In this document: piece after piece, positions 4,133-35,506 of the stretch | Layout of the letters: the number at the start of each line of letters is the position of its first letter | Position numbering within the stretch: position 1 is the stretch's first letter | Source of the DNA: Actinomycetota bacterium | Lineage (GTDB): Bacteria > Actinomycetota > Humimicrobiia > Humimicrobiales > Humimicrobiaceae | NCBI GenBank assembly: GCA_026392215.1 | Contig: JAPLCN010000143.1 | Span: forward strand, 1-37,024 | DNA length: 37,024 nucleotides | Reading direction: 5' to 3' | Notes under the pieces: generated by a model | The model's input: only the letters and a program-made list of their open reading frames with translations | The model's database searches: none | What the model was told of the DNA's origin: nothing | Translations under genes and position numbers: made by a program

Positions 4133-5632
4133 TTACGCAAAGCCTGGGAAATAATCGGTTTTGATGTGGCTTTTTTTGACTCCGATCTTCTTCAAGTTGG
4201 TTTCAAAAGCGGAGACCATTGAGGGCGGACCGGAAATATAGAAAAATCTTTCCTGGTAATCCGGTACTCTTTCTCTAATAGCCTGGTAATATGAAGCTGA
4301 TGGGATGTCTACAATAGAATAAACTACTTTAATGCCCAATTGTAGCTTGGCTTTATCAAAAATATCTTTATAAGCAAAATCATCGCGTGTCTTATTTAAA
4401 TAAAACAAAACAATTGATCTTTTTTCGTTGGTGTCGAGCAGATATTTTATCATGCTCCTAAAAGGTGTTATGCCGATGCCGCCGGCAATAAAGACCAATT
4501 TTTTATTTTTTCCCTTGGGCAAAGTAAAATCGCCTGCCAGTTGCGACGCCACGATCTTCTGGCCCAGCTTGGCAAGTAGTAAAGATTTTTTAAAACTGCT
4601 GGGGTTATTGTAAAATTTTATTCCGAGCAGGATTTCCTGTTCTGTAGGAGAAGAAGCGATAGTTAAATAACGCCTGATGCCGCGACTGTCCTGCCTGGGA
4701 TGCTCTAAAGTCAATTCCATATATTGACCAGGCTTAAAAGCCATTTCTTGATCTGAGGTGAACTCAAAATCATATATACTCGGTGCAAGTTTTGTTCTTT
4801 TTTCCAAAGTTAAAATAAGTTTCTTGTCGGAGCTAACCAAATAGGAAAAAACGCTTCCCACAACCAGAGCCAGCTCAGGGGTAATATACAGAGAGCCGAT
4901 ATGGATCTGTGGTGCAAACAAAAAGCCGACCAGCGCCCCGTAGCATATGCGTAATATTTTAGTTGGTGGCAGCGTCATTGGTTCAGTTAACATTATAAAA
5001 GCAAAAAATAGCATGGGTGAATATACTAATGCTTTTTGCAGACCCGAAAATAAATTCTGCCCGTTCATTAAATTAAAGATAGAGGTGGTCAGCAGCGAAA
5101 CAATGAAAAAACTCCAAACCAAATCAAATCTTTTTATCTTTCTGACTACCAGCAACCCGCCAATTATCACAAACGGTATCATATATAAATTAGCTATCCA
5201 CCAGCTGGCTGACTGGTTGGAGGCCAAAGTTATTAAAACCAAGGATATAGCCACTGGATTGAAAAGATGTTTTTTGCCAACAGCAAGTACATACTTTGAT
5301 GCCATAGCCAGCACCGACACCCAGCTTAAAAACAATAAATTATCAAAGGGCTTGGCCGGAGTTATGATCAACGCTAAAATAAGCGCTGTGATATAGACAG
5401 ACTCAACGTTGCTTGGCGCGTTAAAGGCCCAGGCAAAAATGGCGTTAGCAAAAAAGCACACGGCCAGAATAAACACAGCCGAGATAATTAAGTCAAACGG
5501 CCCAAAGGCCAATAAATTTAAAAAGCTCAAGCCGAACGCTTCGGCTAAAAGAAACAATAGACAGTAAAGCACTGCTCTATACATTGTTATTTTGTTGAGA
5601 ATTCCGTCAATATTTTTAAACATTTTCATCAT
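4133..5632 (-). CDS. RnfD/NqrB-like membrane domain fused to an FAD/NAD(P)-binding ferredoxin reductase domain
   Basis: This 499-residue fusion probably passes electrons between a soluble nucleotide or flavin and the membrane. Residues ~15-265 are polytopic, with about eight hydrophobic segments and RnfD/NqrB-like motifs (FNPVAISLVLI ~124-134; MLTEPMTLPPTK ~214-225, then YGALVG). Residues ~272-499 are a ferredoxin-NADP reductase fold: FAD motif RRYLTIASSP (~320-329), nucleotide-binding AGGIGITPFRSM (~383-394), ISGPPSM (~466-472), and a terminal aromatic segment DYFPGFA. The SGAT flavinylation motif of true RnfD/NqrB is not visible, so FMN is probably not attached here. The gene overlaps the 3' end of apbE by 17 bases and closes a three-gene operon. 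Its G+C exceeds that of the surroundings. Domain calls are firm; electron direction and partners are inference. Confidence 0.85.
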   Translation of the reverse strand: MMKMFKNIDGILNKITMYRAVLYCLLFLLAEAFGLSFLNLLAFGPFDLIISAVFILAVCFFANAIFAWAFNAPSNVESVYITALILALIITPAKPFDNLLFLSWVSVLAMASKYVLAVGKKHLFNPVAISLVLITLASNQSASWWIANLYMIPFVIIGGLLVVRKIKRFDLVWSFFIVSLLTTSIFNLMNGQNLFSGLQKALVYSPMLFFAFIMLTEPMTLPPTKILRICYGALVGFLFAPQIHIGSLYITPELALVVGSVFSYLVSSDKKLILTLEKRTKLAPSIYDFEFTSDQEMAFKPGQYMELTLEHPRQDSRGIRRYLTIASSPTEQEILLGIKFYNNPSSFKKSLLLAKLGQKIVASQLAGDFTLPKGKNKKLVFIAGGIGITPFRSMIKYLLDTNEKRSIVLFYLNKTRDDFAYKDIFDKAKLQLGIKVVYSIVDIPSASYYQAIRERVPDYQERFFYISGPPSMVSAFETNLKKIGVKKSHIKTDYFPGFA

Positions 5633-6374
5633 ATATGTTATATTTTTTAAAACCGCTGGTTTCGGTCGCCAGACCGTCTTTATTAATCATGTACCCTTCA
5701 AAGCCCTTTAAATTTTCAATAAACCTGATTCCCTTCTCTCCCATGGCAAACGCCGCGGTTGCAAACCTGTCGGCCTCGTAAACATTAGGGCCGATGACAC
5801 TTATGCTGACAATCTCAGTTAAAGGCTTGTTTCTGGCGTGCGGGTCATAAATATGTTGGCCTCTGAGGTATGTACCAGAAGTGGCAATACCCTGGTCTTT
5901 TAAATAAAGGACTTTGACAATTTGTTCCTGGTTAAAGGGGTTTTTAATTCCCACGCTCCAGTATCGGCCCTGCTCGTTTTTACCGTGAGCTTGAATGTCG
6001 CCGCCCGCTTCCACATAGAAATTTTTAAATCCTTGCGCCAATAATAATTTGGATGCGTTATGGATCGCCCATCCTTTCACCAAGCCGGAAGGATTGTATT
6101 TCCCTTCAGATGCGACAATATCAAAATATCCGTTTGTTTCTTTTTTTGTTTTTTCTGCAAGAGTAAACACGAGTTTCATGTCTTCGCTCCACTGGCTTTC
6201 TTTTATCTTGCCATTATTAATGAGCGTTATCTCGCTGGTGGTTTTAAAAACGCTGAATTTATTTTCAACGTTCTCAAAATACGAAAAGACCTTATCGATG
6301 TCAATTTTTGTGGCAGAAGTATCCGCGATTTCAACCGTTATTGTCATTCCCATTAAAGCTCTGGTTTGTTTCAT
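5616..6374 (-). CDS. apbE: FAD:protein FMN transferase (ApbE family)
   Basis: Transfers FMN from FAD to a Ser/Thr of target flavoproteins by a phosphodiester bond, using Mg2+. The 252 residues show the family's landmarks: NPSGLVKGWA (~94-103), AGGDI (~123-127), ATSGTY (~164-169), HIYDP (~174-178) and ADRFATAAFAMG (~201-212). It is shorter than the usual 300-350 residues and has no signal peptide or lipobox, so it looks cytoplasmic, whereas many ApbE proteins are lipoproteins. That raises the question of how it modifies the anchored target next door, whose FMN domain is predicted to lie outside. The start is 2 bases after the FMN-binding gene stop, and the 3' end overlaps the RnfD-reductase gene. 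The natural substrate is the Thr of SGAT in the upstream neighbour. Confidence 0.92.
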   Translation of the reverse strand: MKQTRALMGMTITVEIADTSATKIDIDKVFSYFENVENKFSVFKTTSEITLINNGKIKESQWSEDMKLVFTLAEKTKKETNGYFDIVASEGKYNPSGLVKGWAIHNASKLLLAQGFKNFYVEAGGDIQAHGKNEQGRYWSVGIKNPFNQEQIVKVLYLKDQGIATSGTYLRGQHIYDPHARNKPLTEIVSISVIGPNVYEADRFATAAFAMGEKGIRFIENLKGFEGYMINKDGLATETSGFKKYNIYDENV

Positions 6375-6376
6375 AC

Positions 6377-7033
6377 TTACACCTTTGCCTGGCTAAGAGC
6401 CGAAGATAATGAATTTATGAAAGCATTGCTAGTGTTAGTGGCTCCGGAAACAGTATCAACTTGGGCACTCTGGGCCTGAATCGCTTCTGATTTCAGTATG
6501 GGCAAGGCGTAGGTGTTAACCTCGACTGAATATCTTCTGTCGCTTGGATAGCTTAAAAACTGGACATCAGCGAGCTTTCCGCCCTGAATTATCGCCTTTA
6601 CCTGAACATTGCCATAATAGGCGTCTGCAATGCCCCCGTCATATTGCCCGTTTTTATAAAGACCATCCGCAACTGTTGTTGCAGCCGTAGTTGTATTAGT
6701 TGTGGTTGCAGCAGCTGTAGTTGTGCTAGTTGTGGTTTCAGCAGCCGCAGGTGACTGATTGATGGATGACTGCGACGTCTGTGTGGAATAAGATTCGTCA
6801 TCGTTCCCGGATTTGTCCCCGTTCCCGGATAAAGTTAAAGGCGGATTGGGAGAGGATTGGCTTTCAGTCGTGTTTGAAGCCAAATCCGGGGATGATTGGG
6901 TCACGGGAGGGTTAGCCAGCGAATTAACCGTAAAGTTTTGCTGGCCGTTGTCGTTGCGCTGATAGATCGCGTAAAAGACAAAACCTATAATCACAAAAAA
7001 GGATACTAATAATTTTTTAAAGTGTATTTTCAT
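6377..7033 (-). CDS. Membrane-anchored FMN-binding-domain protein with Ser/Thr-rich linker
   Basis: This 218-residue protein starts with a short basic N-terminus and one hydrophobic helix (~7-23). A low-complexity linker rich in Ser, Thr, Pro, Asn and Ala follows (~30-120), including long Thr/Ala runs. The C-terminal FMN-binding domain (~125-218) is like that of RnfG/NqrC and PplA-type proteins. DTVSGAT (193-199) is the flavinylation motif, with Thr199 the expected attachment site for FMN. No lipobox cysteine is seen, so the helix is probably an uncleaved anchor, with the linker and FMN domain outside the cytoplasmic membrane. It is the first gene of the operon with apbE and the RnfD-reductase fusion, and is likely the external electron carrier of that system. 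The linker may span a cell wall or surface layer. Confidence 0.88.
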   Translation of the reverse strand: MKIHFKKLLVSFFVIIGFVFYAIYQRNDNGQQNFTVNSLANPPVTQSSPDLASNTTESQSSPNPPLTLSGNGDKSGNDDESYSTQTSQSSINQSPAAAETTTSTTTAAATTTNTTTAATTVADGLYKNGQYDGGIADAYYGNVQVKAIIQGGKLADVQFLSYPSDRRYSVEVNTYALPILKSEAIQAQSAQVDTVSGATNTSNAFINSLSSALSQAKV

Positions 7034-10461: not shown

Positions 10462-11970
10462 TTAGTCAACAAAGTTATCTGCATCAAGTCCGGAGCGGCT
10501 TAGCATTTCGTTTACGCTTATACCTCTTCTTGAGAGATATTTTCTCACCTGACTTTTATTTGACAGTCTCAACATGTTGTAATTTTCTTCAGAGTCGTCC
10601 TGCCATACTCTTCGCTCAAACATAAGAGCTATACAGTTTTCGATGTTTTCCCATTTGTCTTCGCTTATTTCTCTAAGGAAAATTTCTTTTCTCTCATTTT
10701 CATCAAAGAGCTCCAGAATAGTCGCAATTACATCTTTTAAAATACCTGCCCAAGCCTTAAATGAACCAGATAAATAAATCCTTTCAGATATTTTATGGTT
10801 TTCGTCATTTTTATCAGGATCCCATTTATCTTTTAAAGTATATTCAGTAATAATATTTAGAAGCTTTACAACATTTTTTCGCTCAAATTCTCTCAATCTG
10901 TCAGATTCTTCAATATCAATATCCAGAGGAGGCGTGGCAATAAATTTTTTGAAGATGGTTTGTTTTAGCCTGTTCGTGGTTATTGGTTTTTTGTTTGTTG
11001 AACTGTATTCCTCTATATATTTTATAATTGAATTTTTCTTATCCTCAATTATACTGTCGTAAATATTGCTATCGATCATGTTGATTGCTGCAGATTTTTT
11101 CTTGCCCTTGTTTATTAAAAAAGCAACGAAACCTGATTCAGATTTTGTTCCTTTTTGAGCCATATATTCTTTCCACTCTTCTGCGAATATGCTTGCCCAT
11201 TTGTTAATAAGGACAGATGTGAAGAATGGCATCTGCCTTAATTTATCATGTGCCACAAGGTTTGTTTCTTTAAGCAGTTTTATGTTTGGCTCCACATAAA
11301 CCTTACATTCAATTTCTTTTCTGTCTGCCCAGATCTGGGCAGCAGCTTTATGCTGGCCGTCAAAAAGAAGAATCTTATTTTCAGTCAGGCGGCAAACTGA
11401 TGGAGTAAGCTGGCTGTTTACAAGCAGGTGCCTGTAAAGTTCCCAAAGCCTGTCCATTTCAAGAGGCCTGGGCTGAAGCTCTTCGTCATTATGTATATAT
11501 TCAACCGGAAGAACAATATAAAAATATTTAAAACCGGTTGAAGGGCAGGTAGATAACGGAAATGCTCTTGCTTCATTGCTGTTTTCAAGAGTTATTTTAA
11601 TTTCGCTGTCTGCTTTACTTAACTCTGCCTTCAGATGTTTTCCGTAATTATTTTCATGGAGTTTTAATTTAAGAACGTCATTTAATTTTTTTAGCCCGTT
11701 TCCTTTGAAGAATTTCTCCATTTCCAAAATTGAGCTATATTCAGTAAGAGATAATTCACCCATTTCCTTATGATGCTTTTTGCAGACAGCAATAAAATTT
11801 GACCAGTCAAACTTATCCTGGAAAGTCAGTGGCTTTATATGATGGAACTGGATTTCTGATTTATTATTTATTGGTTTCTTATCGATTGCGCAAATCAATT
11901 TATTATTAACAGTGTTATTTGAAATGATTATTTTTTTATCTTTAGCAGAAGGCTCCGGGTGTGCTGACAT
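10462..11970 (-). CDS. HNH-like zinc domain plus ParB/Srx-like (DGQHK) domain protein, unknown function
   Basis: A 502-residue soluble protein with two recognisable parts. Residues ~25-70 resemble an HNH nuclease: C27, then FHHIKPL (H43, H44), N58, and CKKHH (C63, H66, H67). The second cysteine of the usual first CxxC pair is absent (CAID). Residues ~150-225 look like a ParB N-terminal/sulfiredoxin-like domain, with LLFDGQHKAAAQIW (~201-214) as the signature loop; related DGQHR domains occur in DndB-type DNA-modification proteins. The C-terminal ~270 residues are helical, charged and unassigned. GGAGG sits 7 bases before the ATG. It stands alone, facing the LOG gene and with a flavodoxin remnant behind it. 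A role in DNA transactions or defence is possible; no partner genes support it here. Confidence 0.65.
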   Translation of the reverse strand: MSAHPEPSAKDKKIIISNNTVNNKLICAIDKKPINNKSEIQFHHIKPLTFQDKFDWSNFIAVCKKHHKEMGELSLTEYSSILEMEKFFKGNGLKKLNDVLKLKLHENNYGKHLKAELSKADSEIKITLENSNEARAFPLSTCPSTGFKYFYIVLPVEYIHNDEELQPRPLEMDRLWELYRHLLVNSQLTPSVCRLTENKILLFDGQHKAAAQIWADRKEIECKVYVEPNIKLLKETNLVAHDKLRQMPFFTSVLINKWASIFAEEWKEYMAQKGTKSESGFVAFLINKGKKKSAAINMIDSNIYDSIIEDKKNSIIKYIEEYSSTNKKPITTNRLKQTIFKKFIATPPLDIDIEESDRLREFERKNVVKLLNIITEYTLKDKWDPDKNDENHKISERIYLSGSFKAWAGILKDVIATILELFDENERKEIFLREISEDKWENIENCIALMFERRVWQDDSEENYNMLRLSNKSQVRKYLSRRGISVNEMLSRSGLDADNFVD

Positions 11971-20923: not shown

Positions 20924-22960
20924 ATGCCAAGGGTATTGACCACCTGTATATATTGCGGTTGCGGATGCGGATTGTATCTAATTTCCGATGGGAAAAGATT
21001 AACCGGAGCCTATCCCAGCCGGAATCATCCGGTTTCAAGAGGCGCGCTCTGCGTGAAAGGTTGGAATTCTTATGAGTTTTCCAATGATTTAAATCGGCTA
21101 ACCGCTCCTTTAATAAAAAAGGATGGAAAATTTATTCCAGCAAGTTGGGATGAAACATTAGGGCTGGTGGTAGAAAAATTTAAACATTATAAAAATACTT
21201 TCGGCCCGGATAGTCTAGCATTCCTAAGTTCAGCAAAAACAACTAATGAAGAGAACTTTCTAATGATGAAACTTGCCAGAGCCGTATTTAAAACCAACAA
21301 CATTGACCACTGTGCCAGGCTCTGTCATGCCTCTACCGTAGTGGGTTTATCTTTAGCTTTTGGTGGTGGAGCTATGACAAATTCCATAAATGAATTTAAG
21401 GATGCAGAAGTTATCTTAGTTACAGGCTCTGATACAACTGCTCAACATCCATTGATAGGTTCCCGAATAATTAATACTGTAAAAGATAAGGGAGCAAAGT
21501 TAATCGTTATTGACCCAAGAGAGATACAATTAGCAAAATATGCCACTATCTATGCTCAACCCAAGTGCGGAACTGATGTAGCCTGGATTAATGGTTTAAT
21601 TTATGTGATTATTGCAGAGGATTTACATGACAAGAAATTCATTGAAGAACGAACAGAAGGTTTTCTAGAACTTAAAAGAACTGTCAGAGATTACACGCCG
21701 GAATTGGTTGAAGAAATAACTACAATACCAAAAGAAAAAATTATTGAAATAGCACGTCTCTATGCCAAGGCACGCAAAAGTATGATTGTTTATTCCATGG
21801 GTATTACACAGCATACAACCGGAGTAGATAATGTTTTATCTTTGGCGAATTTAGCAATGGTTACCGGGCATATAGGATTCGCCTCTACCGGAGTAAATCC
21901 TTTAAGAGGCCAGAATAACGTTCAGGGTTCCTGTGATGTGGGAGCGCTGCCGGACGTATATTCAGGTTACCAGAGCCTGGTGGATGGGGATATAAGGAAG
22001 AAGTTTGAACAGGGATGGAGGGTTGAAGGTCTGCCGCCTAAAGCCGGTCTTACGGTTACCGAGATTATAAGCGCCGCAGGAGAAGGCAGGATCAAAGGTC
22101 TTTATATAATGGGGGAGAACCCCATTATAAGCGACCCAGATTCTAATCACGTCAGAAAATGTTTAAGCGAGGTGGAATTTCTCGTCGTTCAGGATATATT
22201 TTTATCCGATACCGCAGAATACGCAGATGTCGTGCTGCCGAGCGCCAGCTTCGCTGAGAAAGACGGGACCTTTACGAATACCGAAAGAAGAGTAGAAAGG
22301 ATCAGGAAGGTTATCGATCCACCGGGACAGGCTAAGGCAGACTGGCAGATACTCAGTGAAGTCGCCAGGAGGATGGGGTATAAAGGCATGGATTATAAAC
22401 ATCCTTCCGAGATTATGGATGAGATAGCAAGCCTGACTCCTATTTATGGTGGCATAACTTATGATAGGCTCGGTCCTTACGGCCTTCAATGGCCTTGCCC
22501 GACAAAAGATCATCCTGGCACGTCCGTACTTCATAAGGAGAAATTCACGAAAGGGAAAGGGACGTTTATGCCGAGGCCGTATATACCGCCGGCAGAATCT
22601 ACGGATGAGGAATACAATTTTGTCTTGACCACGGGCAGGGTATATTGGCATTGGCATACCCGCACGATGACTAATAGGACCTCGACACTTGAGCGGGAGG
22701 CACCAGAGCCGTATGTTGAGATAAATTGCGAAGATGCTGAAGATTTACAGATAAGGGATGATCAATTGATAAAGGTATCCTCGCGCAGAGGGGCAATTAC
22801 GCTCAAGGTGAGAGTTGGTCATAAAGTAGCGAAGGGGACGTTGTTTATTCCTTTTCATTACAGAGAAGCGGCTGCGAATATTCTTACTATCCTCGCGGTG
22901 GACCCTATAGCCAAAATTCCGGAGTATAAGGTATGCGCGGTAAAGGTGGAAAAGATATGA
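20924..22960 (+). CDS. fdhA: Formate dehydrogenase catalytic subunit (molybdopterin, Cys form), apparent chimera
   Basis: The 678-residue catalytic subunit probably oxidises formate to CO2 or runs the reverse. C8, C11, C15 and C43 bind one 4Fe-4S cluster. In CARLCHAS, C134 takes the place of the Sec140 metal ligand of E. coli FdhF, followed by the catalytic His135. GVNPLRGQNNVQG carries the conserved Arg, and the C-terminus ends KIPEYKVCAVKVEKI. It is collinear with FdhF (715 residues) and lacks the N-terminal ferredoxin extension of NAD-linked forms. No twin-arginine signal is present, so it is cytoplasmic. Base composition changes abruptly near 21840 (about residue 305): lines counted before it are 30-35% G+C, those after it 45-52%. 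With an orphan fdhA C-terminus downstream, this suggests a recombinant gene. The stop overlaps the next start (ATGA). Confidence 0.9.
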   Translation: MPRVLTTCIYCGCGCGLYLISDGKRLTGAYPSRNHPVSRGALCVKGWNSYEFSNDLNRLTAPLIKKDGKFIPASWDETLGLVVEKFKHYKNTFGPDSLAFLSSAKTTNEENFLMMKLARAVFKTNNIDHCARLCHASTVVGLSLAFGGGAMTNSINEFKDAEVILVTGSDTTAQHPLIGSRIINTVKDKGAKLIVIDPREIQLAKYATIYAQPKCGTDVAWINGLIYVIIAEDLHDKKFIEERTEGFLELKRTVRDYTPELVEEITTIPKEKIIEIARLYAKARKSMIVYSMGITQHTTGVDNVLSLANLAMVTGHIGFASTGVNPLRGQNNVQGSCDVGALPDVYSGYQSLVDGDIRKKFEQGWRVEGLPPKAGLTVTEIISAAGEGRIKGLYIMGENPIISDPDSNHVRKCLSEVEFLVVQDIFLSDTAEYADVVLPSASFAEKDGTFTNTERRVERIRKVIDPPGQAKADWQILSEVARRMGYKGMDYKHPSEIMDEIASLTPIYGGITYDRLGPYGLQWPCPTKDHPGTSVLHKEKFTKGKGTFMPRPYIPPAESTDEEYNFVLTTGRVYWHWHTRTMTNRTSTLEREAPEPYVEINCEDAEDLQIRDDQLIKVSSRRGAITLKVRVGHKVAKGTLFIPFHYREAAANILTILAVDPIAKIPEYKVCAVKVEKI

Positions 22961-24021
22961 AAGCCTCAAAGGTAAAGATAATTGGAAAAAAGAAGATAAA
23001 GGATTTGTTAAGAGAAGCCTCGCAGGAGTGGAATGTCTACGTTCCCCAGAAGTGGTCAGACGGAGATGTCTGGATGGATCAGCTTCCAAAAGACAAGCAG
23101 ATGCTCGATGAAGCTTTGGAAGATGTGGTATTAGAGGATGTGGATACTGTCATTTCCCCAAAGGACATATTCTTCCCGCAGCTTGAGTCTATATTCAAAT
23201 TTAAAGATGACAAGATCTGGGAGACGCCGGAATTTTCTCCGAAGTTGATATTCGGCGTGCAGCCGTGTGACTTAAAAGGAATACTCTTTTCAGATGATTT
23301 TTACAGGCGTAACTTCGAAGACAGGTATTATGTAAGTCGTATACAGAACAGACTTATTGTGGCAAGGGGGTGTTTAAGGCCTCCGCGGCCTACCTGCTTT
23401 TGCTCCTCTGCTAAGACTGGCCCCTTTGCAGAAGATGGGTTTGATTTGCAGCTGGTTGATTTTGGGGATTCTTATTTCGTAGAAGTGGGCACAAGGGAAG
23501 GTGAAGAGTTTATCACCATGCATAAAAAATTTTTTAGCGAACCTGACGGAAATTATGATATGACCATTAAAGAGATAAAGACGAAGGCCTGCGATTCTCT
23601 TGAGCTAAAAGTGGATTTTCAGAATGCCTTAAGCCTTATGGCGCAGGACAGTTTCATTCCCGAAGAGAATTATAGGCGGATAGGCGAAAGGTGCATCTAC
23701 TGCGGTGGCTGTCTATACGTGTGTCCTACATGCACCTGCTTTAACGTATTCGACAACGTCAAAGATAAAGAGGGCGAGCGGGTGCGAAACTGGGACGCAT
23801 GCGTCTTTGAGGGATACACACGAGAGACAAGCGGCCATAATCCAAGGAAGGACAAATGGTTAAGGACGGCCCGCCGCTATGAGCATAAACTTAAGTTTGA
23901 CTATAAGGTAACGGGGTTGAGCGGTTGCATAGCCTGCGGGCGTTGTCTTTCAAGTTGCCCTGTAGGCATAGGAATCTCTAAATTTATACAGGAAATAACA
24001 GAAAAAAGAAAGATAATGTAA
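22957..24021 (+). CDS. 4Fe-4S electron-transfer subunit (sulfhydrogenase beta / AsrA-like) of the formate dehydrogenase
   Basis: A 354-residue cytoplasmic iron-sulfur protein. Two ferredoxin-type clusters are evident in the C-terminal third: C246-x2-C249-x2-C252-x3-C256 and C324-x2-C327-x2-C330-x3-C334. Extra cysteines (C259, C261) lie beside the first. The N-terminal part has VQPCDLKGI (~101-109) and RPTCFCSS (~144-151). This is the layout of the beta subunits of sulfhydrogenase-type (group 3b) hydrogenases and of anaerobic sulfite reductase subunit A. The ATG at 22957 overlaps the fdhA stop and has GGTGGAAAAG upstream, so it is preferred to an in-frame ATG 24 bases earlier. It sits in the GC-richer block. 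No hydrogenase genes are nearby, so it most likely serves FdhA. Confidence 0.85.
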   Translation: MKASKVKIIGKKKIKDLLREASQEWNVYVPQKWSDGDVWMDQLPKDKQMLDEALEDVVLEDVDTVISPKDIFFPQLESIFKFKDDKIWETPEFSPKLIFGVQPCDLKGILFSDDFYRRNFEDRYYVSRIQNRLIVARGCLRPPRPTCFCSSAKTGPFAEDGFDLQLVDFGDSYFVEVGTREGEEFITMHKKFFSEPDGNYDMTIKEIKTKACDSLELKVDFQNALSLMAQDSFIPEENYRRIGERCIYCGGCLYVCPTCTCFNVFDNVKDKEGERVRNWDACVFEGYTRETSGHNPRKDKWLRTARRYEHKLKFDYKVTGLSGCIACGRCLSSCPVGIGISKFIQEITEKRKIM

Positions 24022-24023
24022 CT

Positions 24024-24860
24024 ATGAAGAACGAATATTTTCCATATCCAGCGGTCATCGAGGATATTAAGACGGAGACCACTGATACAAAAACTTTCCG
24101 CGTGTGGTTTACGGATAAAGTTTTAGCTGATTCATTCGACTATCAACAGGGGCAATTTATGGAACTATCGGTGCCTGGTGCGGGAGAAGCACCTATCTCC
24201 ATTAGCTCTTCTCCATCAAGAAAAGGATTCCTGGAATTTACGATACGCGCTGCCGGAAAAGTCACGAAAAGTATCCATATGTTAAAAAAGGGCGACTATA
24301 TCTACCTAAGAGGTCCCTACGGCAATTCCTTTCCTTTCGAAGATATTAAAGGAAAGAACCTCTATTTTGTAGTGGGCGGCATTGGCTTAGCTCCACTACG
24401 AAGCCTTATAAATCTGGTTATGGATAATCGCAACAACTTCAGGCACATAAAGGTATTATACGGTGCGCGAACTCCCGACGACCTCTGTTTTAAAGACGAA
24501 CTTGAACAATGGAAAAAGATTCCCGATACAGAAGTGTGGCTGACTGTCGACAAGCCCAGTGCAGGCTGGGGCGGCAGGGTCGGTGTGGTAACGGAATTAT
24601 GGAAAGAGACGCACATTAATCCAGAAAACGCTGTCTCAATAGTCTGCGGTCCTCCCATTATGATCAAATTTGCGGCGGACAAGCTTCAGGAATCGGGGTT
24701 TAAAGATAAAGACATCTTTATGACGCTTGAAAGGTATATGAAATGCGGGATTGGAAAGTGTGGTCATTGCAACATAGATGATAAATTTATCTGCAAAGAC
24801 GGCCCTGTATTTACTTATGAACAGAAAAAGGGATTCCGGCATAAGGAACATATCTTCTGA
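24024..24860 (+). CDS. FAD/NAD(P)-binding reductase with 2Fe-2S domain (sulfhydrogenase gamma / AsrB-like)
   Basis: A 278-residue cytoplasmic flavoprotein that probably exchanges electrons between the iron-sulfur subunit and NAD(P). The FAD site is APISISSSP (~56-64), the nucleotide site VVGGIGLAPLRS (~116-127), and the second nucleotide block VCGPPIMI (~207-214). The C-terminus has a 2Fe-2S cluster of the dihydroorotate dehydrogenase electron-transfer type (C241, C246, C249, C257). It begins 2 bases after the beta-like gene. Together they would make FdhA an NAD(P)-linked enzyme; the choice between NAD and NADP cannot be read from the sequence. The gene shares the raised G+C of the inserted block and is followed at once by a truncated fdhD. 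Confidence 0.87.
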   Translation: MKNEYFPYPAVIEDIKTETTDTKTFRVWFTDKVLADSFDYQQGQFMELSVPGAGEAPISISSSPSRKGFLEFTIRAAGKVTKSIHMLKKGDYIYLRGPYGNSFPFEDIKGKNLYFVVGGIGLAPLRSLINLVMDNRNNFRHIKVLYGARTPDDLCFKDELEQWKKIPDTEVWLTVDKPSAGWGGRVGVVTELWKETHINPENAVSIVCGPPIMIKFAADKLQESGFKDKDIFMTLERYMKCGIGKCGHCNIDDKFICKDGPVFTYEQKKGFRHKEHIF

Positions 24861-24875
24861 TAAGTTCTGTAAGAG

Positions 24876-24995
24876 ATGGAATCGTTTAAGATAATCAAGA
24901 TAAAAGAAAATAGCAGGGAAGCTGCGGAGGACATTGTGGTCGAGGGGGTCTCTTTCATGCTTGACTGTGTATTAATTTTTAGCAAAAGAAAATAA
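24876..24995 (+). pseudogene. Truncated N-terminus of a second fdhD
   Basis: ATG at 24876, 15 bases after the reductase gene, opens a 39-codon frame. It begins MESFKIIKIKENSREAAEDI and continues VVEGVSFML, after which similarity to the FdhD start is lost and the frame ends (DCVLIFSKRK, stop). The first ~29 residues match the typical FdhD N-terminus that leads into the conserved IVVEE-type strand. The loss of similarity near 24963 marks the right edge of the GC-richer segment. A complete and different fdhD lies 400 bases on. Confidence 0.65.
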
Positions 24996-25075
24996 TTTAA
25001 AAGTCTGGACACTGAACAGTTACTAATTTTTTAAATAAACATTAACACGATAGGCAACGATACAGTTTCGTTTAG

Positions 25076-25312
25076 ATTTTAAATGAAGCAATTCGTAATA
25101 TTAGCAGCGGTGATAGAATTACTGTAGAATCAAGAAGAGGTTCCATAATTTCAAATGTTATTGTAAATTCAAAAATTAAGCAGGGTGTTGTATTTATCCC
25201 TTTTCATTTTGCTGATTCTCCTGCCAATAAACTTACAAATCCTGTTGTTGACCCGAAAGCTAAAATACCCGAATATAAGGCGTGTGCTGTGAGAATTGCA
25301 AAAGCCTTTTAA
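25076..25312 (+). pseudogene. Orphan C-terminus of a formate dehydrogenase alpha subunit
   Basis: A 78-codon frame without a start codon ends at TAA 25312. It carries GDRITVESRRGSI, VVFIPFHF, NPVVDPKAKIPEYK and ACAVRI, closely matching the last ~75 residues of the intact FdhA (SSRRGAI, LFIPFHY, VDPIAKIPEYKVCAVKV). It is AT-rich (27% G+C in the line from 25141), unlike the 3' half of the intact gene but like the native DNA. It ends 81 bases before the native fdhD. This looks like the displaced tail of the original fdhA. No promoter or start suggests that it is translated. Confidence 0.85.
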
Positions 25313-25393
25313 ATATGACTTTTGCAATAAAATTTTTTCGTCAGGTATTTAATTTTTAATTATTTTTTTTTCTAATAAAGCGCTGATAAAGTT

Positions 25394-26206
25394 TTGGAAA
25401 TAGGGAAAAAAGTAAAAATTGAAAAAATAAAAGTTTCTGCTGGTAGTGAAATATTGCAGGATATAATACCTGCTGAATTGTTTTTAACGATAGTTTTAAA
25501 TAATAATGCTATTTCTATTATTTCATGCTCACCGCACAATTTGATCGAGCTTACTATAGGTTATTTGATAAATAATGGATATATTGAAAAATATTCAGAT
25601 GTAAATATCATAAATTTTTGCCAGGATTTTTTAAATAAAAAAAAGAGCGGAACTATACTAAGTGCGCAAGTTGATGTAAGTGCAAATTGTAAAATAAATA
25701 ACTTAAGTGACTTAAAATATCCAAAGTTTATTTCTTCTGCATGTGGAAGCGTGGATGAATTCGTATTAGAAAAAAGATTAAATCGAATTAAGAGTGATAT
25801 TAAGATCAGTCCGGAAGTTATTTTTAAATTAAATCTTGAAACGGTAAAACAACAGAAGTATAAAAAGGAATTAGGGGGCCTCCATAGCGCGGCATTATTT
25901 GACAAAGACGGGAAAGTTTTAAATCTGATGGAGGATATTGGCAGGCATAATTGCATAGATAAAATTACAGGCTATATGTTGATTAATAATATAGAATTTT
26001 CAGATAAAATAATATTTACAACTGGCAGGCTGAGCTTGGATGTAATTTATAAAATTTGCAGAATGTCTGTTCCAATAATAGTTACAAATTCTTCAATTAC
26101 TCATAGTGCAGTCCAACTGGCAAAAAAAATGAACTTAACTGCAATTGGCTATGCAAGGAGCGGCAGATTTAATGTTTATTCCAATTCTATTAGAATAATT
26201 AAATGA
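25394..26206 (+). CDS. fdhD: Formate dehydrogenase accessory sulfurtransferase FdhD
   Basis: Transfers sulfur to the molybdenum cofactor of formate dehydrogenase, which is needed for activity. The 270 residues are normal length. Family motifs are SCSPHNLIELTIGYLI (~50-65), GGLHSAALFD, EDIGRHNCIDKI, TTGRLSLDVIYK and GYARSGRFNVYS. The sulfur-carrying CxxC loop is altered: the sequence reads SACGSVDEF (~112-120), so only the first cysteine remains. The start is a TTG with a poor ribosome-binding site. The gene is AT-rich (28% G+C in the line from 25441) and belongs to the native DNA, directly after the orphan fdhA tail, which suggests an original fdhA-fdhD order. It can serve the chimeric FdhA. 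Confidence 0.92.
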   Translation: MEIGKKVKIEKIKVSAGSEILQDIIPAELFLTIVLNNNAISIISCSPHNLIELTIGYLINNGYIEKYSDVNIINFCQDFLNKKKSGTILSAQVDVSANCKINNLSDLKYPKFISSACGSVDEFVLEKRLNRIKSDIKISPEVIFKLNLETVKQQKYKKELGGLHSAALFDKDGKVLNLMEDIGRHNCIDKITGYMLINNIEFSDKIIFTTGRLSLDVIYKICRMSVPIIVTNSSITHSAVQLAKKMNLTAIGYARSGRFNVYSNSIRIIK

Positions 26207-26527
26207 TGAAAGAGGCTTTGAAGCACTTTGCGGTATATATTCAAAAAATTTTAAGAATTGTTTTTTAATTAATTATTTTTAAAGTATAATATACAATTGG
26301 TTTTATGTCGGATTGTTTATTCTAAATTTGCAGCCTTTATAAGTTATTATATTTAATGACAGTAATTTTTTGTACTTTCTAATTAGTTATTGGTGGATAA
26401 ACTGATTTTTATTAAATTATTTATCTAAGCTGTGTTTAAATTTTTCTTAATTTGGATTATTTAGCCAATTATTCACCAGAAACTAAATAATAAAATAAAA
26501 AAAAAGAGCATCTGTTAATTACCAGTA
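26207..26527. other. Leader region of the nuo operon
   Basis: These 321 AT-rich bases separate fdhD from nuoA. They hold a ~108-bp imperfect palindromic element (26381-26488), listed separately. A TATAAT at 26285-26290 has no convincing -35 partner. No gene is seen. Confidence 0.4.
26381..26488. repeat. Palindromic element copy 1 in the nuo leader
   Basis: The left end AATTAGTTATTGGTGGATAA (26381-26400) and the right end AATTATTCACCAGAAACTAA (26467-26486) are imperfect reverse complements (about 15 of 20). The right end, read in reverse, matches 22 of 25 bases with the left end of a second element at 35335-35443 between nuoM and nuoN (TTAGTTTCTGGTGAA, then AATT and CTAAA). The element ends 40 bases before the nuoA ATG. 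Length and terminal inversions resemble a small MITE or an extended palindromic intergenic repeat. Confidence 0.5.
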
Positions 26528-26908
26528 ATGCAAGTAACCCAACAAGCACAATTTAATGTAAACTACATAACTCTGGTAGTTTTCTTTTTTGTAAGCATTG
26601 TTTTTGTCCCTTTTGTTGTATTTATAACCAAATTTTTAGCCCCTCATAATCCCGGCGAAGAAAAAAATTTAATTTATGAATGCGGAGTTCCCCCAAGAGG
26701 CGGAATATTCACTCATTATTATATCAGGTATTATATTTTTGCTTTCCTGTTTGTTTTATTTGATGTTGAAGTTGTTTTCTTATATCTGTGGGCGGTCTTA
26801 TTTAGAAATTTAGGGTTTGCCGGTTTGATTGAAGTTCTGATATTTGTTGCTGTTTTGATTTTAGGTCTGGCTTACGTGTGGAAAAAAGGAATACTTAAAT
26901 GGGATTAG
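26528..26908 (+). CDS. nuoA: NADH-quinone oxidoreductase-like subunit A
   Basis: A small membrane subunit of complex I at the junction of the peripheral and membrane arms. The 126 residues contain three helices, with the conserved loop [10 protein letters not shown] (~50-59) and the acidic second helix [15 protein letters not shown] (~78-92). No ribosome-binding site is visible before the ATG. The gene overlaps nuoB by 10 bases and opens the nuoABCDHIJKLMN operon. Confidence 0.96.
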
Positions 26909-27429
26909 AAAGAAAAAAGACTTTAGAAGACCATCTTTATCTTAAAGATAAATTCGGGAAACCTAATATTTTAACGGTTTCATATGACAAGATCATGAAT
27001 GCCGCCCGTTCCAGGTCTATCTGGTATCTTACTTTTGGAATTGCATGCTGTGCTATTGAAATGATGGCAACTGGCGGATCGCATTATGATCTGGACAGGT
27101 TTGGCATGTTTTTCAGGGCAACACCCAGGCAGGCTGATCTGATTATTATTTCAGGAACGATAACAAGAAAATATGCACCTGTTGTTCAGAGAGTATATAT
27201 GCAGATGGCTGAACCTAGATATGTTCTTGCCATGGGTTCATGTGCTATTACGGGCGGCCCATTTTATGATTCATACAATGTTGTTCAGGGGATAGATAAA
27301 GTTATTCCTGTTGATGTTTATGTTCAGGGTTGTCCTGCAAGGCCGGAAGCGCTGTATTGCGGTCTTCTTAAATTAAAAGAAATAATAAACAGGGATTCAA
27401 TTGTAAAAAAACCTGTGATTGTAAAATAA
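26899..27429 (+). CDS. nuoB: NADH-quinone oxidoreductase-like subunit B (N2 cluster)
   Basis: Carries the terminal 4Fe-4S cluster N2, which hands electrons to quinone. The ligands are visible as the adjacent pair C50-C51 ([13 protein letters not shown]), C115 (GSCAITGG) and C145 (QGCPARPEA). The 176 residues are typical. AAAGGA lies 8 bases before the ATG, which overlaps the nuoA end. The 77-base gap to nuoC is larger than others at this end of the operon. Confidence 0.97.
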
Positions 27430-27506
27430 ATTTAGCTTAGGGGACAAATAAGCCAAACCATAAAATATTTATACTTAAAAGTATTTACTTAAAAGAAAGT
27501 TTTAAG

Positions 27507-28028
27507 TTGGAAGTAAAACAATATAATTTTAAAGCAGTAGACAATGATAAAGTAATTTCTCTTTTGCAGGATAAATTTAAATCTGTTGGTACTAGCGAGG
27601 GTAATTTTAGTTTAAACCACGGGCAGATTTATTGTGAAGTTTCAAAAGAAACTATAAAAAATACGATAAAGATGCTTAAAAACGATAAAGATTTAAAATT
27701 TGACTATATAAAGTGCATAACTGGTGTGGATTATAAAGAATATCTTGAGATAGTTTACAGTCTTTATTCATTTGATAATAACTATTCTGTAAATATAAAA
27801 GTAAGAATTGATGCTGCCAATCCTGATGTTGACTCCATAACAGATGTTTTCTGGAGCGCTGACTGGTTTGAAAGAGAAATATGGGAATTTTTCGGCATTA
27901 ATTTTAAAGGTCATCCAAACTTGAAAACTTTACTTCTTCCCGGTGACGTTGATTATCACCCGTTGTTGAAAAGTTTTGAAATCAAATGGGAAAAAAGAGA
28001 ATACGTCCGCCCTAAAGTATTTGAATAA
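27507..28028 (+). CDS. nuoC: NADH-quinone oxidoreductase-like subunit C
   Basis: A peripheral 30-kDa-type subunit without cofactors that packs against NuoD. The protein has 173 residues and begins with TTG. The family block is VFWSADWFEREIWEFFGINFKGHPNLKTLL (~112-141), given here as key residues D-W-F-E-R-E and G-H-P-N. It is separate from NuoD, unlike the fused NuoCD of E. coli. Confidence 0.95.
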   Translation: MEVKQYNFKAVDNDKVISLLQDKFKSVGTSEGNFSLNHGQIYCEVSKETIKNTIKMLKNDKDLKFDYIKCITGVDYKEYLEIVYSLYSFDNNYSVNIKVRIDAANPDVDSITDVFWSADWFEREIWEFFGINFKGHPNLKTLLLPGDVDYHPLLKSFEIKWEKREYVRPKVFE

Positions 28029-28094
28029 TCTTTTAAGTTTTTTTTATTTATTAATCTTAAGTGAATTTTAAATAATTTTTTAAATTAAATATTT

Positions 28095-29258
28095 ATGGCA
28101 GATGAAATAAAAAATAATGAAATAGAAGTTGATGAGATATCGGCGGTAAATGAACCGGGAGATTTTCCAAAGGACTATATGGAGATAAACTTTGGTCCCC
28201 ATCATCCTTCAACTCACGGCGTTTTCAGGTTTATTGCAAAGCTTGACGGTGAAAAAATCCTGGAGGTTGAACCCATCGTCGGCTACCTGCACAGAGGCAT
28301 TGAAAAAATTGCCGAGAATAGGACTTATGTTCAGTTTAAACCTCTGGTTGACAGGCTTGATTATACCGGCGCAATGAATAATGAGTTTGGTTATTGTATA
28401 GCTGTAGAGAAATTAATGGAGCTTGAAGTTCCTTTAAAAGCGCAGGCTATAAGAGTAATTTGCGCGGAATTAAACAGGATTTGCGCGCATGAAGTTTTTT
28501 TTGGGGCAATGGGTCTTGAAGTAGGAGCATTTACACCTTTCCTGTTTGGATTTAAAGACAGAGAGATTGCGATGCATCTTATGGAAATGCTGGCTGGCGG
28601 CAGGCTTACTTTTAATTACTTTACTATTGGCGGTGTAAGGCAGGATGTGCCAAAAGGATTCTACGCGGAAACAAAAGAATACTTAAAAAAGTTTAAGAAA
28701 AATCTGGCTGAATACCATGAACTTTTCAGTGGAAACGAAATATTCATTAAAAGAACAAAGGGTGTTGGGGTTATTACCAGGGAAGATGCCATTGAATGGT
28801 CAATGAGCGGACCTACTTTAAGAGGCTCCGGAGCAGTTTTTGATATCAGAAAAGTAGAACCTTACAGCGGTTACGATAAATATGACTGGGAAGTGCCTGT
28901 TGGCAAAAACGGCGATGTTTATGACAGGTACCTGGTAAGAATGAATGAAATGGCACAATCTGCCAGGATTATTGAGCAGGCGCTGGAATCTTTACCTGAA
29001 GGAGATCATCAGGCTAAAGTAGCCAGAGTAATAAAACCGCCTGCAGGAGAAATATATTTAAGGGTGGAAGGAACAAAAGGAGAATTAGGCTTTTATGTTG
29101 TCAGCGATGGTACAGACAAGCCATACAGAATGAAAATAAGAACTCCTTCGTTTAATCATCTCAATGCTTTAAATTATGTATTAAAAAATAATTACATAGC
29201 AGACTTCCCGATAATTTTAGGAAGTTTTGACACTGTTATGGGAAGTGTTGACAGGTAG
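28095..29258 (+). CDS. nuoD: NADH-quinone oxidoreductase-like subunit D
   Basis: The 49-kDa-type subunit that forms the quinone-binding pocket with NuoB and is related to [NiFe] hydrogenase large subunits. The 387 residues show GPHHPSTHGV (~34-43), VGYLHRGIEK, and the C-terminal SFDTVMGSVDR. The hydrogenase metal cysteines are absent, so it is a true complex I subunit. An N-terminal ~25-residue acidic extension precedes the core. No ribosome-binding site is evident before the ATG in a very AT-rich leader. Confidence 0.97.
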   Translation: MADEIKNNEIEVDEISAVNEPGDFPKDYMEINFGPHHPSTHGVFRFIAKLDGEKILEVEPIVGYLHRGIEKIAENRTYVQFKPLVDRLDYTGAMNNEFGYCIAVEKLMELEVPLKAQAIRVICAELNRICAHEVFFGAMGLEVGAFTPFLFGFKDREIAMHLMEMLAGGRLTFNYFTIGGVRQDVPKGFYAETKEYLKKFKKNLAEYHELFSGNEIFIKRTKGVGVITREDAIEWSMSGPTLRGSGAVFDIRKVEPYSGYDKYDWEVPVGKNGDVYDRYLVRMNEMAQSARIIEQALESLPEGDHQAKVARVIKPPAGEIYLRVEGTKGELGFYVVSDGTDKPYRMKIRTPSFNHLNALNYVLKNNYIADFPIILGSFDTVMGSVDR

Positions 29259-29266
29259 GAGCTTAT

Positions 29267-30244
29267 ATGGTTTGGTGGCTGGCATTACTTTGGGCCTTAT
29301 TAAAATTAATAATTGCATTTTTATTTATTTTCCTTACTGCACTGATACTTATATATATGCTAAGGAAAGTAATGGGCCATATGCAGTACAGGATGGGCCC
29401 AAGGCATCATGGTCCGCATGGAATTTGGCAGACTGTTTTTGATGCTTTAAAGCTTCTTGGCAAGGAAGATATAATTCCAAATGGTATTGATAAATACGTT
29501 TATTTATTTGCCCCGGTAATTGCTTTTGTGCCTTCACTTACAATATTTGCTTTTTTACCGTTTGCTCCAAAAGTAGCAGCTTCAAATTTTGAAATCAGCC
29601 TGTTTTTTATTTTTGCTATATTAGGGTTTTCAACAATATCACTATTAATGGCAGGCTGGGGCTCAAACAACAAATATTCGCTCATTGGCGGCATCAGGGG
29701 AGCGGCGCAGCTTATTTCCTATGAAATTCCTCTTGTATTATCCACTATGGGTGTTGTAATCATGGCTGGCAGCTTGAATTTGACAGATATAGTAAATGCA
29801 CAAGTCAAAATCTGGTATATAATTCCACAAATAGTCGGGTTCTTTTTATTTTTTACCTGCGGACTGGCTGAAATAAACCATACTCCTTTTGATATTCCTG
29901 AAGCAGAATCAGAAATAGTTTCAGGCTTTAATACTGAATACAGCGGTTTCAGGTTTGCAGCTTTTTTCCTTGCTGAATTTGTAAACTTATTTATTATATG
30001 TGCACTTGCAGTTTTGCTGTTTTTCGGGGGCTGGAAACCTTTTACTAACCCGATAGCAGGAACAATATGTTTCATTGCCAAAACTTATGTCTTAATATTT
30101 ATTTCGATGTGGGTTCGTTCAACATTTCCAAGGTTCAGGCTTGACCAGTTCATGGATTTTGGATGGAAGTTTATGCTTCCGCTTTCTCTGGTAAATATTT
30201 TCGTTACAGCAGTGGTTGTTTTGATTGTTGATAAGATCAGATAA
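29267..30244 (+). CDS. nuoH: NADH-quinone oxidoreductase-like subunit H
   Basis: A membrane subunit lining the quinone entry path and coupling it to ion transport. The 325 residues have about eight helices and the conserved loops MQYRMGPRHHGPHG (~43-56), IRGAAQLISYEIPL, and AEINHTPFDIPEAESE followed by GFNTEYSG. RSTFPRFRLDQ near the C-terminus is also diagnostic. It starts 8 bases after the nuoD stop. Confidence 0.97.
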   Translation: MVWWLALLWALLKLIIAFLFIFLTALILIYMLRKVMGHMQYRMGPRHHGPHGIWQTVFDALKLLGKEDIIPNGIDKYVYLFAPVIAFVPSLTIFAFLPFAPKVAASNFEISLFFIFAILGFSTISLLMAGWGSNNKYSLIGGIRGAAQLISYEIPLVLSTMGVVIMAGSLNLTDIVNAQVKIWYIIPQIVGFFLFFTCGLAEINHTPFDIPEAESEIVSGFNTEYSGFRFAAFFLAEFVNLFIICALAVLLFFGGWKPFTNPIAGTICFIAKTYVLIFISMWVRSTFPRFRLDQFMDFGWKFMLPLSLVNIFVTAVVVLIVDKIR

Positions 30245-30284
30245 TTAATAGTTTAAAGACAAAATATTAACAAAGGGGACAGAA

Positions 30285-30746
30285 ATTAACTTAATCGGCA
30301 TAGGGCTGTTAAAAGGATTAAAGGTAACACTTATAGCTTTTTTCAGAAAGCCTGTAACTGTTATGTATCCATATCATAAGTTACCTGTTCCAAAAAGAGG
30401 CCAGGGTCTTATAAAGTTAAGGATAACGCAGCTTGAGCCGGAACCGAGGTTCAAGTGCACGGCTTGCGGAATATGCGAAAAAAACTGTCCGCAGCATTGT
30501 ATTGAAGTTGTAAAAATGGAAAATGATAAGCAGCCTGAAGTTTATACTGTTAATTACGGGCTTTGCATGTTCTGTAGGATTTGCATAGACGTCTGCCCCT
30601 TTTCTGCTCTTGAACAGACCCAGGAATATGAATTTATCGGAGAATCAAGATCAGATTTTATAAGGCCAAAAGAACAGCTGATGATGAGAACTGTTTTTGT
30701 GGAGTCTGAAAAAGAAACCAGAACTAAGGAAAAAACAGAAGCATAG
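30285..30746 (+). CDS. nuoI: NADH-quinone oxidoreductase-like subunit I (2x 4Fe-4S), apparent ATT start
   Basis: A ferredoxin-like subunit with clusters N6a and N6b that relays electrons to NuoB. Counted from the proposed start, the ligands are C58, C61, C64, C68 and C94, C97, C100, C104. The first ATG in frame is at 30363, but it has no ribosome-binding site. The 26 codons upstream of it encode the conserved amphipathic start of NuoI (GLLKGLKVTLIAFFRKPVTV). That frame opens after a TAG at 30249 and has no ATG, GTG or TTG. AAAGGGG lies exactly 6 bases before ATT at 30285, the most likely initiation codon, giving 153 residues. If only the ATG were used the protein would have 127 residues and lose its membrane-facing helix. 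Confidence 0.9.
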   Translation: MNLIGIGLLKGLKVTLIAFFRKPVTVMYPYHKLPVPKRGQGLIKLRITQLEPEPRFKCTACGICEKNCPQHCIEVVKMENDKQPEVYTVNYGLCMFCRICIDVCPFSALEQTQEYEFIGESRSDFIRPKEQLMMRTVFVESEKETRTKEKTEA

Positions 30747-30860
30747 TTTTTAATTAAAATATTTGATTTTACATTATTAATTTAAGAAATTTTATAAAAA
30801 AATTTAAAAAAAAAAATTTAAAGAACAAGTCAGGCAGATTTAAAAGGAAGGGAGTTTAAA

Positions 30861-31391
30861 ATAATAAGTTTAATTGTTTTTCTGGGTGTTAGCCTGGTTC
30901 TTATTTTTTCAGGGCTGATGGTGATTTTTTCAAAACATATAATCCATTCTGCGCTATACCTGGCACTGGCGCTATTGTGCGTTGCAACTTATTTTATATT
31001 GCTTAAGGCCGAGTATCTTGCTGTTGTCCAGATTATGGTATATATAGGAGCAGTTGTTGTAATGATTTTATTTGCATTAATGCTTACAAGGACACATGTA
31101 GGAGAAGTAACCAATATCTCAAACAAGCAGGTATGGATTGCCGGTGCTATATCAATCTTGTTATGCTGGGCATTGGTAATAATTATTTATATGGCCAGAA
31201 GCGGCTTCACATGGATAAGTTCTGATAAAATTCCTGTTCTTTCTGTAAAAGACCTGGGTTCTATTTTATTTTCAAAATATGTTCTTCCGTTTGAAATTAT
31301 CTCGCTTTTAATTTTAGGCGCATTAATTGGTTCAGTAGTGCTGGCTATGAAGGAAAAAGATGACAGTAAAGACAAGAAGGAAGGAAAATAA
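30861..31391 (+). CDS. nuoJ: NADH-quinone oxidoreductase-like subunit J, apparent ATA start
   Basis: An antiporter-adjacent membrane subunit with five helices. Conserved features are NPV-like KHIIHSALYLALALL and YLAVVQIMVYIGAVVVMILFALM (key residues Q-I-x-V-Y-I-G-A-V-x-V). The first ATG in frame (30918) would remove most of helix 1. The in-frame codons upstream encode the missing helix (SLIVFLGVSLVLIFSGL). GGAAGGGAG lies 6 bases before ATA ATA at 30861-30866, so translation probably starts at one of these rare codons, giving 176 residues. No ATG, GTG or TTG is available in that stretch. Confidence 0.88.
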   Translation: MISLIVFLGVSLVLIFSGLMVIFSKHIIHSALYLALALLCVATYFILLKAEYLAVVQIMVYIGAVVVMILFALMLTRTHVGEVTNISNKQVWIAGAISILLCWALVIIIYMARSGFTWISSDKIPVLSVKDLGSILFSKYVLPFEIISLLILGALIGSVVLAMKEKDDSKDKKEGK

Positions 31392-31393
31392 TA

Positions 31394-31741
31394 ATGAGCA
31401 TTGCTTTATTTAAAATACTTATTGCAAATTACGATATAAAACTCTGGTATTTTCTGGTTATTTCTGCAATTTTGTTTTGTATTGGAATATTTGGAGTTTT
31501 AACAAGGCGGAACCTTGTTCAGATACTTATGTCAATTGAGCTTATTTTAAATGCAGCGATGATTAATTTTGTTGCTTTTTCAGCATATCAGAAGCCTGAA
31601 AGCCAGCTTGGGACAATATTTACAATTTTTATTATTATAGTTGCAGCATGCGAAGTTGGAATAGGGCTTGCAATTATTCTTTCCATTTACAGGGGAAAAA
31701 GCACAACAGATATTTCAAAAATAAATATCTTAAAGTGGTAG
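31394..31741 (+). CDS. nuoK: NADH-quinone oxidoreductase-like subunit K
   Basis: A three-helix membrane subunit homologous to MrpC, with conserved glutamates in the ion path. The 115 residues include GVLTRRNLVQILMSIELILNA (~34-54, with the essential-type Glu in SIEL) and a second acidic helix (AACEVGIGLAIIL, ~84-96). It starts 2 bases after nuoJ and has AAGGAAAA upstream. Confidence 0.96.
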   Translation: MSIALFKILIANYDIKLWYFLVISAILFCIGIFGVLTRRNLVQILMSIELILNAAMINFVAFSAYQKPESQLGTIFTIFIIIVAACEVGIGLAIILSIYRGKSTTDISKINILKW

Positions 31742-31760
31742 AAAGTTATAATTATTAAAA

Positions 31761-31802
31761 TTTAGAATTTATCATAAGAGAGTTAAAACCTGAAATTCTA
31801 AA
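31761..31802. repeat. 10-bp inverted repeat between nuoK and nuoL
   Basis: TTTAGAATTT (31761-31770) and AAATTCTAAA (31793-31802) are exact reverse complements separated by 22 bases. They fill most of the 89-bp gap before nuoL, ending 28 bases before its start. It may be an mRNA processing or stability hairpin. The stem is AT-only apart from one G-C pair, so it is weak. Confidence 0.4.
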
Positions 31803-31830
31803 AGAAAGCAACTAAAAAAGGCAGGCAAGC

Positions 31831-33774: not shown

Positions 33775-33847
33775 AAGAAGTAAAATTTTTTAATATAGAT
33801 TTCCGGGAAGGAAAAGTTTTATATGACTTTAAGAACGGAGGCAGTTA

Positions 33848-35314: not shown

Positions 35315-35334
35315 TTTTATAAGTTAATTATTTT

Positions 35335-35443
35335 AATTAGTTTCTGGTGAACAATTCACTAAAGTTTAAAAAATTATGAAATTTTGAGCTTATAAAACTG
35401 AAAAATTTATAAAAAAACTTAAATTAATCACCAAGAATTAATT
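35335..35443. repeat. Palindromic element copy 2 between nuoM and nuoN
   Basis: The left end AATTAGTTTCTGGTGAACAATT (35335-35356) and the right end AATTAATCACCAAGAATTAATT (35422-35443) are imperfect inverted repeats (17 of 22). The element is 109 bp, almost the same length as copy 1 in the nuo leader, and matches it best in the opposite orientation. It sits inside the operon, 64 bases before the nuoN ATG. A further pair, TTTTATAAG (35315-35323) and CTTATAAAA (35389-35397), can also fold. Confidence 0.5.
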
Positions 35444-35506
35444 AGTAAGAGCGTTGAAATTTAATTTCATTAGAGAATATTTAAAGAAAGGTATGTAAAG
35501 TTAAAT

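Follow-up and report, generated by a model that had tools for sequence, protein, structure and literature searches.

Three adjoining genes in an Actinomycetota genome (2.15 Mb, 96.5% complete) raise the question of whether parts of the Nqr and Rnf complexes can serve, on their own, as a minimal route for electrons from NAD(P)H to the outside of the cell. The genes lie in a stretch of 37,024 nucleotides, here called the window. We compared their products with profile libraries, predicted structures, sister genomes, and a collection of related loci. The results concern three matters: whether the locus is a recognizable electron transfer system, how its lineage is distributed, and on which side of the membrane its flavin is attached.

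Gene content and organization

The original prediction described three tightly packed genes, and these are present head to tail on the minus strand (Table 1). In transcription order, they encode an FMN_bind protein, an ApbE flavin transferase, and a 499-aa fusion of a membrane domain with a reductase. The first two genes are separated by a spacer of 2 nt, the ApbE and fusion genes share 17 nt, and all three reading frames are open. Both halves of the fusion, PF03116 at the N-terminus and PF00175 at the C-terminus, score above the Pfam cut-offs within this single protein; PF00970 (FAD_binding_6) falls slightly under its cut-off in the reductase domain. As the ApbE gene adjoins a gene for an FMN_bind protein with an N-terminal hydrophobic anchor, recognized by hydropathy, the operon qualifies as a flavinylation cluster. 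The membrane anchor, Ser/Thr-rich linker, and DTVSGAT site originally attributed to the FMN_bind protein were all found, and the protein contains a single FMN_bind stretch.

Table 1. Coordinates and supporting evidence for the operon genes and the domains of their products.
Feature	Position in window	Strand	Size or residues	Evidence
FMN_bind protein (NqrC/RnfG-type domain)	6377..7033	-	218 aa	PF04205, E 8.2e-9, above cut-off
N-terminal TM anchor, FMN_bind protein			aa 8-25	Hydrophobic, maximum KD 3.0, no lipobox
Linker rich in Ser/Thr/Ala/Asn, FMN_bind protein			about aa 26-122	Composition
FMN_bind domain with DTVSGAT			aa 139-213	PF04205
ApbE FAD:protein FMN transferase	5616..6374	-	252 aa	PF02424, E 2.2e-40
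Fusion, whole	4133-5632	-	499 aa	NqrB/RnfD-like membrane domain + FAD/NAD(P) reductase
Fusion membrane domain	4838..5632	-	aa 1-265	PF03116 (NQR2_RnfD_RnfE), E 4.3e-8, above cut-off
Fusion reductase domain	4133..4837	-	aa 266-499	PF00175 (NAD_binding_1), E 5.5e-11, above cut-off

The operon is flanked by genes for an ABC transporter and by glnS. GlnRS and NuoD from the same contig are 80-90% identical to the proteins of genomes of the same genus, and the contig is therefore truly part of its genome. Further downstream, the window contains genes of a formate dehydrogenase-like set together with a cluster encoding complex I (20924-36988). Complex I, as represented by NuoD, is patchy in the host family and was found in 5 of 23 genomes (G000, which is the host, G003, G004, G013, and G021). 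A 502-aa frame at 10462-11970 combines an N-terminal HNH-like stretch (CAIDKKPINNKSEIQFHHIKPL) with a subsequent ParB-like DGQHKAAAQ motif. No two-component system was found in the window; one is encoded downstream of the operon in Actinomycetota bacterium fen_731 (L063), on a Mesorhizobium plasmid (L223), and at two other related loci (L139, L134).

Fold and topology of the fusion protein

The full-length fusion was modeled by AlphaFold, with 44 homologues supplied, at a pLDDT of 92 and a pTM of 0.87; the membrane domain alone gave a pLDDT of 91. When the membrane domain was searched against the PDB, the top 15 matches were all RnfD or NqrB chains (TM about 0.6-0.7), the RnfD chains including 9eri_D and 8rbq_D, and the next matches were urea transporters at E > 0.5. 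The reductase domain matched those of flavohaemoglobin, NOX, and NqrF. In the model, the protein begins inside, passes through ten crossing elements, and ends inside, with Lys and Arg concentrated in the alternate loops that face inward. On the basis of this topology and the positive-inside rule, both termini are predicted to lie inside and the reductase domain to be cytosolic. The side of the reductase, which the original prediction left to modeling, is thus predicted to be the inner and not the outer one.

The fusion was also described as lacking the RnfD flavinylation motif. This proved correct: no [ST]GA[ST] occurs in its first 330 residues, and the same holds for every one of the 85 fusions compared, the window copy included. 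Related reductases also occur singly in the host family. Genomes of this family encode a stand-alone 226-aa reductase (L051:3762-4442, L052:4721-5404) near a desulfoferrodoxin-like frame; it is 31-41% identical to the C-terminal domain of the fusion and possibly acts as a superoxide reductase partner.

Relationship to known electron transfer systems

The full RnfABCDGE set is absent, as originally stated. In profile searches of the host genome, FMN_bind, PF03116, and ApbE matched only at the operon locus and RnfA/RnfE (PF02508) matched nowhere. A faulty search does not account for this last result, since most sister genomes, searched in the same way, yielded two RnfA/E copies.

The gene set itself has been described before. 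Meheust et al. (2021) define an NQR/RNF-like system by a PF03116-PF00175 fusion encoded in a flavinylation cluster, report it from 127 genomes, mainly of Actinobacteria and CPR, and propose that it transfers electrons one way from NAD(P)H to the outside (PMC8238504). Huang et al. (2024) found no conservation of the flavinylation site in the membrane subunit, and proposed that the partner's covalently bound FMN may sample a site within the membrane at which flavin is held non-covalently (PMC10979944, PMC11334425). The window operon is a further member of this system, with which it shares the fusion, the FMN_bind subunit, the ApbE, and the motif-free membrane subunit. Given these reports and the uniform absence of the motif among the fusions compared here, the lack of the RnfD motif in the fusion is a known hallmark. 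The minimal NAD(P)H-to-outside route that was originally suggested corresponds to the model already published for such a gene set, and the present observations are consistent with those of its predictions that can be tested at the level of sequence. No biochemical characterization of any NQR/RNF-like member was found in the literature searched.

With RNF and Na+-NQR, the operon has in common the NqrB/RnfD fold, the NqrC/RnfG-type FMN domain, and the NqrF-type reductase domain. It differs from both in that the genome encodes no RnfA/E, the fusion contains no 2Fe-2S domain, the membrane subunit has no covalent FMN site, and there is no second, ion-pumping path. It is likewise distinct from the actinobacterial MsrQ-like systems, in which haem cytochromes (PF01794) are predicted as the membrane subunits, whereas that of the window is NqrB/RnfD-like. 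A resemblance to flavin-based extracellular electron transfer had also been suggested, and part of it stands: as in the Listeria-type systems, a cytosolic reductant would supply an ApbE-flavinylated extracytosolic FMN_bind protein. Listeria-type systems use other membrane components, a lipoprotein with multiple FMN groups (PplA), and an exported ApbE (FmnB; PMC9973259). In contrast, the window operon encodes one FMN_bind domain, no lipobox, and an unexported ApbE, and no gene for a quinone dehydrogenase or EetA/EetB adjoins it in the window. The comparison is a loose one, since no membrane component is held in common.

Distribution and phylogeny

When one genome was scanned for each species, at least 377 relatives were recovered among the stretches examined. 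Among the best 80 loci, the order FMN_bind-ApbE-fusion is kept in 78; of the two exceptions, L064 is cut off at the edge of its contig, and L066 is without the upstream partners. None of 23 genomes of operon-carrying relatives encodes RnfA/E. The survey of domain co-occurrence without other Rnf genes that had been proposed bears out the original expectation. In L064, which is from Levybacteria, a 78-aa frame (L064:4543-4779) located 3 kb downstream of the full fusion resembles a truncated second copy, its only match being to the C-terminal end of that protein.

The window fusion is most similar to that of fen_731 (70% identity), followed by copies from Levybacteria (54%), Peribacter (50%), and a Mesorhizobium plasmid (46%), while its identity to those of Saccharibacteria and typical Actinobacteria is about 30-40%. 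In the trees, the first four and the window copy form one clade with 100/100 support. When all Actinomycetota copies were forced together, the log-likelihood was 203 lower (AU p about 1e-55 to 2e-55). Since the window copy groups with those of CPR and the Mesorhizobium plasmid, and the monophyly of the Actinomycetota copies is rejected, transfer between phyla is the simplest reading of the fusion phylogeny. Two actinobacterial-type copies of the operon occur in assemblies labelled as Vibrio cholerae strain 35D (L113, WNZI01000018.1), where the tree places the copy with Arthrobacter, and as a plasmid of Pseudomonas sp. DR48 (L224, NZ_CP081947.1); both assemblies are probably mislabelled or contaminated.

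Mobility between lineages had been proposed on the grounds of GC content, and it is the phylogeny that supports it; base composition gives weak evidence. The operon is indeed richer in GC than the window as a whole (41.3% against 36.1%), only 6% of stretches of equal length being as high, and its GC3 is mildly elevated (z 1.7-1.9). However, other genes of the window are as rich or richer, among them those of the ABC transporter and the fdh genes. The fusion and ApbE genes rank 12th and 9th among 33 genes, and GC was set aside as evidence of mobility.

The clade also differs from most NQR/RNF-like loci in its FMN_bind protein and its ApbE. The window copy has a canonical SGAT, a transmembrane anchor rather than a lipobox, and an ApbE of the other subtype. 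The motif [ST]GAT is present in the FMN_bind proteins of the window, fen_731, Peribacter, and Mesorhizobium; of 79 proteins surveyed, 76 are without [ST]GA[ST], the usual ending being [AS]GSSLTS. A lipobox was identified in 71 of the 79, with a transmembrane segment serving as anchor instead in six copies from CPR and in both from the host family. Export by the Tat pathway was considered and rejected, as RR is present in 9 of 79 proteins only and not in the window copy. Judged by these sequence features, the window copy is a distinct, cross-phylum subtype, which is a modest new point.

Side of flavinylation

The window ApbE has neither a signal peptide nor a transmembrane segment (maximum KD over the whole protein 1.15). 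There is no space for a signal peptide to have been overlooked in the gene model, since the stop codon of the FMN_bind gene is only 2 nt upstream of the ApbE ATG. An N-terminal hydrophobic segment is likewise absent from all 78 operon ApbEs. Such a segment is present in 24 of the 30 top-scoring ApbEs of the same phylum, several of which are from RNF clusters, and in none of 18 additional ones sampled from this phylum. A signal-less ApbE is consequently not unique to the NQR/RNF-like operon. Between the two subtypes, the ApbEs are deeply divided into class A and class B, with 100/100 support. Convergent loss of the signal peptide in two unrelated ApbE lineages was not retained as an explanation, since a common origin of the operon ApbEs is not rejected (p 0.29).

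In the textbook order, a protein is exported first and flavinylated outside afterwards. The operon ApbE appears, from its sequence, to be on the wrong side of the membrane relative to its extracytosolic target, and flavinylation may hence precede export. Either FMN attachment takes place in the cytosol and precedes export, or ApbE reaches the outside by another route, or the topology differs from that predicted. Tentatively, and at rather less than an even chance, we suggest that ApbE works in the cytosol on the internal FAD pool and flavinylates the FMN_bind chain before or during its export, apparently as in other actinobacterial clusters. No FAD exporter or secreted ApbE would then be needed. 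In lacking a signal, the operon ApbEs depart from the published background on ApbE (PMC12052999). An ApbE without an export signal acting on an extracytosolic target was not found to be discussed in the main text of the literature searched.

Proposed mechanism and alternatives

The operon very probably encodes a two-subunit transmembrane electron conduit of the NQR/RNF-like type, together with its own flavin transferase. By analogy with the family, NAD(P)H would reduce the FAD of the fusion's C-terminal domain, on the cytosolic side. The electrons would then cross the NqrB/RnfD-like domain, probably through a non-covalently bound flavin, as has been proposed for the system, since the covalent site is missing. 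From there, as the motif and the operon context suggest, they would reach an FMN attached by ApbE to the SGAT threonine of the anchored, extracytosolic FMN_bind protein, which would pass them to an acceptor outside. Transport would be one-way, without the second electron path that makes Nqr and Rnf ion pumps.

No gene for an acceptor adjoins the window operon. Fe(III) is the best guess, because a VIT family protein is encoded beside the same-order three-gene relative on the Mesorhizobium plasmid and VIT1 ferrous iron transporters have been reported in six NQR/RNF-like clusters (Meheust et al., PMC8238504). These links would equally suit a conduit whose chief role is that of an assimilatory ferric (or other envelope) reductase, in which Fe(III) is reduced outside for uptake as Fe(II) and not for respiration. 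We consider such a role possible but do not favor it: no VIT protein is encoded at any of the 80 other loci up to a distance of about 5 kb, for which reason VIT linkage was discarded as a general functional clue, nor does one adjoin the window operon, whose neighbors are the ABC transporter and glnS genes. At the other extreme, the operon could be what is left, without function, of a decayed RNF or NQR cluster, given that just two Rnf-type domains remain and the membrane subunit lacks the flavinylation motif. This is highly improbable. The three frames are open, both the gene order and the motif-free fusion recur across phyla in 78 of the 80 loci, and 41 residues are invariant among 44 sequences; such conservation contradicts decay.

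The pattern within the host family points to a further role, in which the operon replaces a lost RNF as an outlet for NAD(P)H in redox balance while complex I conserves energy. RnfA/E is present in 24 of the 28 family genomes searched and the full fusion in only 2 of 35. The two carriers, the host (G000) and fen_731 (G021, PMCC01000127), belong to different genera; both are among the four genomes without RNF (p = 0.016, with no correction for kinship) and both encode complex I. Still, there are two carriers only, and completeness is limited, at 85% for G021 and under 80% for the other two genomes without RNF. In addition, the operon could not replace RNF energetically, because it has no ion-pumping subunits. 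While we regard this role as unlikely, the pattern suggests, as a lead only in view of the two carriers and the incomplete genomes, that the operon is acquired, or retained, in genomes that lose RNF.

Implications

If the conduit works as proposed, its two genes would constitute a minimal NAD(P)H-to-outside electron route made of Nqr and Rnf parts. The lineage to which the window copy belongs crosses phyla, extending from deep Actinomycetota to CPR and a Mesorhizobium plasmid, and occurs in host genomes without RNF. Its unexported ApbE poses a simple and testable question, namely where flavinylation happens. Should ApbE prove to act in the cytosol, a flavin-bearing polypeptide would cross the membrane and the textbook order of export and flavinylation would be reversed.
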